Below, piece by piece: positions 21,675 through 24,307 of a DNA stretch of 40,034 bases. Position 1 is the first letter of the stretch. Every line of letters begins with the position of its first letter. Location: the NCBI GenBank assembly GCA_014730115.1, contig WJIU01000014.1:1-40034 (forward strand), read 5' to 3'. Position numbers and translations under genes: made by a program. This DNA comes from Microcaldota archaeon. Lineage in GTDB: Archaea > Micrarchaeota > Micrarchaeia > Anstonellales > Bilamarchaeaceae. Under the pieces are notes generated by a model. The model was not told where the DNA came from, did not search any database, and was given only the letters and a program-made list of their open reading frames with translations.

Positions 21675-23030
21675 TCAGAAAAACAGGTCCCTTTCCCCTT
21701 TTTCTATACGCTTCAGCCTTTTCTTTGTTTCATTTCTCCTGTCTTCATCCTCAATCCTTTCCAGCTCTGTCCGGATGGTTTTCTCCCCAAGCTCTTTCAT
21801 CTCAGGGCTGGCATAATCAAGCAGGAACTCCTTGAATGTGAGTATGGCGTTGGGATGGCAGAGAAAATGGATGTTGCCTTCCTTGGCCAGCTTCATGAAG
21901 GTTTCACCGGTCCTCTTGCTCCGGTAGCACGCAGTGCAGAAGCTGGGGAGCATCTGCTGCCTGCACATGCCCTGCAGGACTTCGTCAACAGAGCGGTGGT
22001 CGGAAAGCTCAAACTGCCGGTTCTGCCTTGTGGAATAGCCGCCGGGGGATGTCTTGGATGCTGCAGACGTCTGGGAAATGCCCATGGCAAACGCCTTTTC
22101 CCTTATTTCCGGGGGCTCCCTGGTGGACAGAATCATGCCGGTGTAAGGCACCGAGAGCCGGATGGCCGCTATGAGCTTCAGAAAATCCTGGTCAGAAACA
22201 GGGTGCTCGGGCCGGTAGTCCACAGAGGGGGCTGGCCTGAACCTGGGCACTGAGATGGTATGCGGCCCAACTCCGTGTGTTTCATCCATGTACCTGGCGT
22301 GGGACAAAAGGGAAAGCGCCTCAAACCTGTAATCATACAATCCGAAAAGCACGCCTATGCCGTAATCATCTATGCCGGCCCGAAATGCCCTCTCATGTGC
22401 AGTAATCTGCCTTTGGTAATCAGCCTTTGGCCCGTGGTGCAGTTTTTCATAGGTTTCCCGGTGATAGGTTTCCTGGAACAGCTGATAGGTTCCTATGCCA
22501 ATCTCCTTCAGCTTCCGGTAGTCCTCCCCGGTGGTCGCGGCGATGTTTACATTTACCCTTCTTATCTCCCCGTTTCCGGCCTTTGTTCTGTAGATTGTCC
22601 GGATGGAATCACATATGTAGTCAATGTCATTATCAGGATGCTCCCCCGCCTCCACCAGGATTCTCTTGTGGCCCATTCCGATTATGAGCCTGGTCTGCTC
22701 TGCAATCTGCTCCATGGTAAGCCGGATTCTTTTCAGCCCCCTGTTGCTGCAGTGGAAGCCGCAGTATTTGCAGTCGTTTACACAATAATCGGAAAGATAA
22801 AGCGGGGCAAAGAGCACCAGCCGGTTACCATATATCTCATTTTTCACTTTCCAGGCAGCATCAAACAGCTTCCGGAGCTGCTTCTCATCATGCATATTAA
22901 GGAGTGCAGCGCTCTCCTCCAGGGAAAGCCCTTTCTTACGGGCTGCCTTTGCAAGAATCTTATCAAGAAGCCGTTCATCCGGTGAAGGTGTGGAATCAAC
23001 CAAATTCTGAATTTTCTTTTCATCTATCAT
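21675..23030 (-). CDS. hydG: [FeFe]-hydrogenase H-cluster radical SAM maturase HydG
   Basis: 451 aa; 'IYGNRLVLFAPLYLSDYCVNDCKYCGF' (CX3CX2C) and C-terminal 'FCTACYRSKRTGETFMKLAKEGNIHFLCHPN' = CX2CX22C, the HydG auxiliary-cluster motif that distinguishes it from ThiH. Confidence 0.95.
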   Translation of the reverse strand: MIDEKKIQNLVDSTPSPDERLLDKILAKAARKKGLSLEESAALLNMHDEKQLRKLFDAAWKVKNEIYGNRLVLFAPLYLSDYCVNDCKYCGFHCSNRGLKRIRLTMEQIAEQTRLIIGMGHKRILVEAGEHPDNDIDYICDSIRTIYRTKAGNGEIRRVNVNIAATTGEDYRKLKEIGIGTYQLFQETYHRETYEKLHHGPKADYQRQITAHERAFRAGIDDYGIGVLFGLYDYRFEALSLLSHARYMDETHGVGPHTISVPRFRPAPSVDYRPEHPVSDQDFLKLIAAIRLSVPYTGMILSTREPPEIREKAFAMGISQTSAASKTSPGGYSTRQNRQFELSDHRSVDEVLQGMCRQQMLPSFCTACYRSKRTGETFMKLAKEGNIHFLCHPNAILTFKEFLLDYASPEMKELGEKTIRTELERIEDEDRRNETKKRLKRIEKGERDLFF

Positions 23031-23032
23031 GA

Positions 23033-24307
23033 TTAAACCCCCAGGTCAGTTGGTGCCCTCCCCAAAGAGCATAATAAGTCCAGGGTATTTTTGACTGTTT
23101 GCCCCAGGGCCTCATCTTTCGCCTTTCCGGGATAAAGGTCATAGGATTCCCTGAACCCGGGTGGGGTGGTGTTTATCATAAGGGAATTTCCGCCTGCAAG
23201 AAGGCCGGACCTTGCCGCCTCCGGAGCCAGGGTCTCCAAAGCGGTAGTCACAAGTATTTTTGATTCGTGGTCCACAAGCCTGCTCAGTGCAATTGTCTTA
23301 AGGACATCGTTAATTCCGGGCTTTCCTGCTGAAGCAAGGGGGGTGGCAGGATGGGGAACAAGCGGCCCGAAGGAATACATGTCAGGCTTCAGCGATTTTG
23401 TAAGAAGGATGTCTTTCACGATGTGCCGGCTGGTCTGCCCCGGAAGGCCGACCAGAAAGCCGGTTGCAACCACAAAGCCGGCATCCTTGAGATATTTAAT
23501 CAGGTCAACCCGGTCCTTCAGCTTTTTCCCGGGCCTCATCTTATGGTAAATAGTCTCGTCTGATGTCTCAAACCTGAGCAGGGCGCCGTAGGCCCCTGCA
23601 TCGTAAAGCCTGCGGTAGCATTCCCTGCTCCTTTCACCGACGCTCATGAAAATCAGGATGCCGTGCCTGCGGTGGATTTTGCTGGCAATCCCCGCCAGCA
23701 TGTCATCTGTATAAAAATCGTCTTCCCCTGACTGCAGGACCAGGGCCTTGAACCCCAGCTGCTCCACCGCATAATCAACCGTATCCATTATCTGCTCCTC
23801 CGACATCCGGTAGCGCCGGAGGCCCCTGTTGTTTCTCCGCAGGCCGCAGTAAAGGCAGTTGTTTTGGCAATAGCTTGAGAATTCAACAATCCCGTGGACA
23901 CAGCACGCATTTCCAAGCATTTCTTTGCGAATGCTGTTGGCTTCGGAATAAAGCATCTCAAGATTCTCTTCCGCTTCCAGCACTGCGGCCATTTCATTGA
24001 CAGCCAGGGTGCCGGTTTTCCGGGCTTTTTCAATTACCGGAGAAAGGGCGCCAAATCCGGAGCCGGGCCGGGAAAGGCCGGCATCAATATGCTTGAGCTC
24101 AAAGAAATGCTTTTTCCATTTTTCAAGAACAGGAAGGGCATCCTCTTCCGGTGCCTTGCCAACTACTACTCCCCCCTGTGCGTAAACATATTCCCCCGGC
24201 TGCACGTCCGCGTCAATCACCAGGGCCTGCTTGAGCTCCCCAAAATACTCCACAGTGGCTTTTCCGGAATCAACAGAAACCACTTTGCCGGGAATGGCAT
24301 AGCACAT
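23033..24307 (-). CDS. hydE: HypC/HupF-like domain fused to HydE radical SAM maturase
   Basis: 424 aa; N-terminal 'MCYAIPGKVVSVDSGKATVEYFGELKQALV...PGEYVYAQGGVVVGKAPEEDALPVLEKW' resembles HypC; C-terminal 'FSSYCQNNCLYCGLRRNNRGLRRYRMSEEQI' (CX3CX2C) is HydE. Confidence 0.92.
   Translation of the reverse strand: MCYAIPGKVVSVDSGKATVEYFGELKQALVIDADVQPGEYVYAQGGVVVGKAPEEDALPVLEKWKKHFFELKHIDAGLSRPGSGFGALSPVIEKARKTGTLAVNEMAAVLEAEENLEMLYSEANSIRKEMLGNACCVHGIVEFSSYCQNNCLYCGLRRNNRGLRRYRMSEEQIMDTVDYAVEQLGFKALVLQSGEDDFYTDDMLAGIASKIHRRHGILIFMSVGERSRECYRRLYDAGAYGALLRFETSDETIYHKMRPGKKLKDRVDLIKYLKDAGFVVATGFLVGLPGQTSRHIVKDILLTKSLKPDMYSFGPLVPHPATPLASAGKPGINDVLKTIALSRLVDHESKILVTTALETLAPEAARSGLLAGGNSLMINTTPPGFRESYDLYPGKAKDEALGQTVKNTLDLLCSLGRAPTDLGV

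Follow-up and report, generated by a model that had tools for sequence, protein, structure and literature searches.

The window, the whole stretch of 40,034 nucleotides of archaeal DNA that was analysed, carries a gene in which a HypC domain is joined in frame to the radical SAM enzyme HydE, followed by hydG. The fusion is real, and its residues 1–62 are a HypC domain by both profile and fold. The gene pair is probably a maturation module for [NiFe] hydrogenase that is made of [FeFe]-type radical SAM enzymes and replaces HypCDEF. The parts belong to known families; what is new is their combination and the probable client. In a profiling study of 1,466 genomes from 2011, homologues of HydE and HydG occurred essentially only alongside HydF (PMC3226654), and the maturation of [NiFe] and of [FeFe] hydrogenases has been described as the work of distinct machineries (PMC6802093). 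Six Hyp proteins are regarded as necessary for the anaerobic synthesis of the [NiFe] cofactor, and where its CO ligand comes from is called the most pressing open question (PMC12134894). A HypC-HydE fusion is not named in any open-access paper that we found. If the transfer to a [NiFe] enzyme is true, it constitutes a new maturation route. Should its product go to a [NiFe] hydrogenase, the module would connect the two pathways, reveal an anaerobic source of CO for a [NiFe] site and offer two genes in place of HypCDEF for testing and engineering.

The fusion gene and its neighbour hydG

The reading frame begins with ATG-TGT (MCYAIPGK...) and continues without a break for 424 residues, as the initial annotation, which gave no strand, had correctly described; it lies on the minus strand (Table 1). 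The N-terminus had been called HypC-like, and profile and fold agree with this. The Pfam model HupF_HypC matches residues 1–62 with 37.2 bits (gathering cut-off 28.5), and residues 1–77 searched alone reach 41.5 bits; the NCBIfam HypC model (TIGR00074) gives the fusion 37 bits, under its cut-off of 48. The AlphaFold2 model of residues 1–77 (mean pLDDT 83) shows a barrel with a C-terminal helix, and a Foldseek search of the PDB with it returns HypC structures in all ten top places (best E 7e-6, TM 0.79). The remainder of the protein had been assigned to HydE with a CX3CX2C motif, and it is matched over residues 92–398 by the NCBIfam HydE equivalog TIGR03956 with 263.9 bits against a cut-off of 254.6. 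It contains C147, C151 and C154, and the core motifs QSGE, TT and LYPGK align with Thermotoga maritima HydE. The same model scores other fusions at 286.3 bits (G097, over the cut-off), 218.1 bits (G078) and 249.9 bits (G107), the last two under it. In a sequence comparison with solved structures, the closest were T. maritima HydE (E 1e-68) and Thermococcus kodakarensis HypC (E 1e-7). Among the Pfam models suggested earlier for checking the protein, HupF_HypC and Radical_SAM score over their cut-offs and BATS under its cut-off here.

Table 1. Coordinates of the fusion gene, of hydG and of their parts within the window.
Feature	Coordinates	Strand	Evidence
hypC-hydE fusion gene, 424 aa	23033..24307	minus	ORF, profile searches, full-length homologues
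HypC domain (residues 1–66), MCYAIPG start, five-strand barrel and C-terminal helix	24110..24307	minus	PF01455, AF2 model, Foldseek
Cys2 codon, HypC iron-ligand position	24302..24304	minus	Cys2 invariant, start codon immediately 5'
Gln44 codon, in place of conserved HypC His (H51 in E. coli)	24176..24178	minus	alignment with T. kodakarensis HypC
Interdomain linker (residues 67–108), helix then variable	23984..24109	minus	alignment; low-confidence model
C136-V137-H138, invariant Cys-x-His just 5' of radical SAM motif	23894..23902	minus	alignment
HydE radical SAM domain (residues 142–299)	23411..23884	minus	PF04055, 71.9 bits
HydE CX3CX2C motif, C147, C151, C154	23846..23869	minus	sequence; invariant among 11 full-length fusions
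BATS-like region (residues 316–395)	23123..23362	minus	under Pfam cut-off here, over it in homologues L153 and L154
hydG, 451 aa	21675..23030	minus	start 2 bases past fusion stop codon; TIGR03955
HydG CX3CX2C motif	22761..22784	minus	sequence
HydG C-terminal CX2CX22C motif (auxiliary cluster)	21858..21938	minus	kept in all complete HydGs compared

The alignment with T. kodakarensis HypC confirms the earlier observation that Cys2 is kept and that a glutamine, Gln44, stands where HypC has its histidine. Both are invariant in the 11 full-length fusions, in which M1-C2-Y3-A4-I5-P6-G7, C136-V137-H138 and C147/C151/C154 do not vary either. Free HypC requires a cysteine directly behind the start codon, and Cys2 occupies this place in 12/12 fusions (one with a GTG start), the copy in genome G024 included. 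The AlphaFold model of the full-length protein, which was computed from a two-sequence alignment, has a mean pLDDT of 47, at which Cys2 is not placeable relative to the HydE barrel. Scans for sigma-70 promoters and terminators stayed at chance level. The downstream HydG reaches 549 bits with TIGR03955 (cut-off 312) and is canonical in every feature tested.

Occurrence of the fusion and two kinds of HydE locus

The searches covered 59 order-level relatives and then 301 genomes of the phylum; the genomes are MAGs with a completeness of 77–91%. Full-length fusions were found in 11 of the 301 genomes: that of the window (G000), G001, G005, G008, G010, G022, G078, G097, G107, G293 and G294. Two further copies are cut by a contig end (G024) or broken (G030), and the fusions are spread over four family codes (f1, f16, f19 and f26). 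The fusion proteins of the 10 other genomes are 45–66% identical to that of the window, and the nearest named relative is from a Candidatus Micrarchaeota MAG with 62% identity over the full length. The initial annotation had allowed for an assembly artefact; this, like a chance fusion, is ruled out by 11 full-length copies in independent genomes. A plasmid search yielded unfused HydEs only. A match in G108 (L155) was excluded as HydE, being weak (87 bits) and located among adenylating-enzyme-like genes. This HydE/PylB-like radical SAM protein (L155:7146-8162) lies amid paralogous phenylacetate-CoA-ligase-like genes, perhaps in a biosynthetic cluster.

The 16 intact HydE loci of the phylum fall into two kinds. 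In three of them, HydE, HydF and HydG stand together (E-F-G; G038, G076 and G279), and all three genomes have HydA and no [NiFe] large subunit; the other 13 are E-G loci, all in genomes with [NiFe] and without HydA. This sorting is perfect (P 0.002 given the margins). A HydE tree, calculated with the HypC columns removed and with bacterial and T. maritima HydEs included, separates the 13 [NiFe]-linked from 7 HydA-linked sequences with a support of 100/99, and the 11 fused HydEs lie on one side of a branch supported by 97/91. Nine HydE columns have no residue common to both sets, namely, in the numbering of the window protein, C135, C136, H138, G241, A281, S312, E358, S375 and I378; HydA-linked HydEs have Y, H or F at the position of C136 and Arg at that of H138. 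The HydG tree, however, shows no split by client; in it, the sequences from G078 and G097 cluster with archaeal HydGs that are linked to HydA. Since HydE splits by client and HydG does not, the step that has changed is that of HydE and not the production of CO and CN.

Two of the [NiFe]-linked E-G loci, in G054 and G058, have a HydE without a HypC domain. That these genomes manage without it, and that the His is Gln in all members, would fit a HypC domain that takes no part in iron chemistry and is just a barrel for docking or stabilisation. However, Cys2 and the whole of MCYAIPG are invariant, and the cysteine follows the start codon in every fusion as it does in free HypC, which makes this explanation extremely improbable.

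Hydrogenases and maturases in the fusion genomes

All 12 fusion genomes, which are the 11 with a full-length copy and G024, encode a [NiFe] large subunit that passes the PF00374 cut-off, as opposed to 70/301 genomes of the phylum (hypergeometric P ~1e-8, uncorrected for relatedness), and the large subunits of all 12 contain the L1 (RxCGxCxxxH) and L2 (DPCxxC) motifs. The catalytic domain of HydA (PF02906) was detected in 0/12 fusion genomes, while the same model matches 40/301 genomes of the phylum. HydF over cut-off was found in none of the fusion genomes tested and, among the 59 order-level genomes, only in G038; matches under the cut-off were other GTPases. HypD gave no match whatever and HypF none over cut-off in the 59 order-level genomes, while the positive controls, methanogens for HypD, were detected. 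The HypF matches under cut-off were unrelated proteins that share acylphosphatase-, Sua5- or Kae1-like parts. These genome-wide searches for HypD, HypF and HydF refer to the order-level set, outside of which the distant fusion genomes G078, G097, G107, G293 and G294 lie. The genome search proposed earlier for the same fusion and for hydF, hydA and hypD thus returned further fusions together with a uniform lack of these three genes in the fusion genomes that each search covered, and the suspicion that HydF is missing proved right, hydG following the fusion directly.

The initial annotation had suggested that the HypC domain hands over the iron unit within the [FeFe] pathway. Put fully, the domain would stand in for HydF and pass the iron-carbonyl-cyanide unit to HydA, which is in keeping with HydE and HydG as dedicated [FeFe] maturases and with the missing HydF. 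A role in hand-over remains plausible, but the pathway does not: besides the lack of HydA and the consistent presence of [NiFe], those HydA-containing genomes that have HydE keep HydF too, and the HydE half of the fusion falls outside the HydA-linked branch. Moreover, the cluster of HydF is essential for the bridging ligand (PMC12752695), and a HypC barrel could not substitute for it. The [FeFe] reading is therefore largely refuted already, and we consider it very improbable.

Another explanation is that the module adds CO only, beside a Hyp-like pathway too divergent for profiles, with the cyanide coming from elsewhere. HydG produces CO, whose origin in anaerobic [NiFe] maturation is unknown (PMC12134894), but it produces cyanide too, the HypF matches amount to the shared parts described above, and HypD is absent from all 59 genomes although the controls were found; this explanation appears improbable. 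Free HypC over cut-off did not occur outside the fusions in the order-level search. Weak HypC matches in G015, G017, G041, G051 and G056 (20–24 bits) were rejected, as they are under cut-off and belong to frames of 216–274 aa that start inside the profile; presumably they are reductase barrels adjoining [NiFe] genes. HypA occurs in 3/59 order-level genomes, with no fusion genome among them, and it adjoins the [NiFe] genes in the distant fusion genome G294.

In the genome of the window, contig C7 (L073) encodes in a row a HycI protease, an antiporter-like subunit, a NuoB-like small subunit, the large subunit, a NuoH-like subunit and a ferredoxin. The large subunit has 386 aa, a C-terminal extension and the motifs RTCGICSQCH and DPCISCMER; overall it resembles NuoD/FpoD, but it has the four metal-binding cysteines that NuoD/FpoD are not known to have. 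From these sequence features, the cluster is predicted to be a group-4-like [NiFe] hydrogenase. Its small subunit (L073:7229-9295) harbours, at the cluster-cysteine motif GGC|NGC, an intein that carries a LAGLIDADG domain (Pfam Intein_splicing and LAGLIDADG_3), and the same gene in G005 is intein-free. Elsewhere in the phylum, short diverged HycI-like proteins (L163:5925-6317, L165:9529-9954, L152:1627-2010 and similar ones) stand beside group-3-like [NiFe] genes; they score under or near the Pfam cut-off and are probably the maturation protease of that clade. In G078, a [NiFe] large subunit, a HycI-like gene, the fusion and hydG share one contig of 8.5 kb, with the fusion about 3 kb from the large subunit. 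In G030, what is left of the fusion and of hydG is fragmentary, with large gaps inside (L069:840-2560), and the genome is without any hydrogenase match; this locus is a natural case of the joint loss of the module and [NiFe].

The proposed [NiFe] client has to be weighed against several observations. HydE is missing from the source genomes of 25 of the 39 [NiFe] large subunits in the comparison, and in the tree of all 39, HydE-positive and HydE-negative members are interleaved, which requires at least seven changes. At the order level, 28/59 genomes contain a [NiFe] large subunit over cut-off; HypD and HypF are missing from every one of them, and HydE is missing too from about 19 of the 28. 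That both modules are missing from most [NiFe]-positive genomes of the phylum is a serious gap and the main caveat: they may use another source, obtain the cofactor from elsewhere or contain unusual enzymes. Many such archaea are thought to be host-dwelling. In addition, the histidine that assists iron binding in HypC is lost, G054 and G058 have no HypC domain, and the module mostly does not adjoin hydrogenase genes.

The patchiness among the large subunits and the mostly missing linkage would also suit a module in which HydG and HypC-HydE make an Fe-CO/CN cofactor, either low-molecular or bound to protein, for another, unrecognised enzyme, with an indirect link to [NiFe] because both are retained in anaerobic, H2-using lineages. 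However, the co-occurrence in all 12 genomes, the physical linkage in G078 and the joint loss in G030 argue for a direct link, the [NiFe] large subunit is the sole known client of HypC, and HydA shows the same patchiness, so that we regard this alternative as unlikely. In 37 of the 40 HydA-positive genomes, the search for HydE gave no match at E 1e-20; most of their HydAs are short (~370–410 aa) and, judging by their sequences, are minimal [FeFe] hydrogenases without recognisable maturases. Although HydA depends on its cofactor, maturases are thus commonly absent in the phylum, and the objection from HydE-less [NiFe] genomes is weakened, as it is not a specific refutation of a [NiFe] client.

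Proposed route and comparison with known systems

Given genomes that combine a [NiFe] large subunit with a lack of HydF, HydA, HypD and HypF, the most economical interpretation is a transfer from HydG to HydE, to the HypC domain and to the [NiFe] apo-enzyme; the likely client is thus [NiFe] hydrogenase, which HypC naturally serves. HydG is known to convert tyrosine into a mononuclear Fe(CN)(CO)2 cysteine complex; HydE receives this complex directly, reduces it and turns it into the dimer destined for HydF (PMC12752695). HypC delivers Fe(CN)2CO to the large subunit of [NiFe] hydrogenases, and on the HypC-HypD scaffold the iron is bound by C2 and possibly by H51 (PMC12134894). In the proposed route, HydG, as its conserved motifs suggest, would split tyrosine and load iron with CO and CN, and the product may go directly to the HydE domain, like in the [FeFe] pathway. 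Since the active site of this HydE is altered, it would probably remodel the mononuclear unit and not dimerise it to a [2Fe] precursor. The HypC domain, by analogy with HypC elsewhere, would then take the unit through Cys2 and dock on the apo large subunit, and the HycI-type protease, whose gene is present beside the hydrogenase genes, would complete the maturation. The HydG product has two CO and one CN, whereas the [NiFe] site has one CO and two CN, so that a ligand exchange or an unusual ligand set is required; the exchange could take place at the new Cys-x-His, or the hydrogenase could have the unusual set. Arguments for and against are about evenly balanced for a second route to the [NiFe] iron in its full form, with tyrosine-derived CO and CN from HydG, delivery by HypC-HydE and complete replacement of HypCDEF, in which the hydrogenase might even carry Fe(CO)2(CN) instead of Fe(CO)(CN)2.

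Among known systems, the fusion shares with HypC/HybG/HupF (PF01455, TIGR00074) the Pfam match, the fold and the MC-x-x-x-P-G start with Cys2. It differs in being joined to HydE, in the exchange of His for Gln, in an order without the HypD partner and in a score under the NCBIfam cut-off. With T. maritima HydE and TIGR03956 it has in common the equivalog score, CX3CX2C and QSGE/TT/LYPGK; compared to the HydE of [FeFe] maturation, it forms a separate branch with nine diagnostic changes, has an extra N-terminal domain and belongs to a genome without HydF and HydA. HydG resembles Thermoanaerobacter italicus HydG and TIGR03955 in all features tested and differs solely in the genes around it in the genome, from which HydF and HydA are missing. 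The HypABCDEF system (PMC12134894) has the same likely client, a HypC-type carrier, a HycI-type protease and, in G294, HypA as well. However, HypD and HypF are missing in the order, and CO and CN would here derive from tyrosine via HydG, whereas HypABCDEF uses carbamoyl phosphate and its CO source is unknown (PMC12134894). As in HydEFG (PMC12752695), HydG and HydE are successive radical SAM steps, but in place of a system with the HydF scaffold and HydA, there is one to which a HypC domain has been added.
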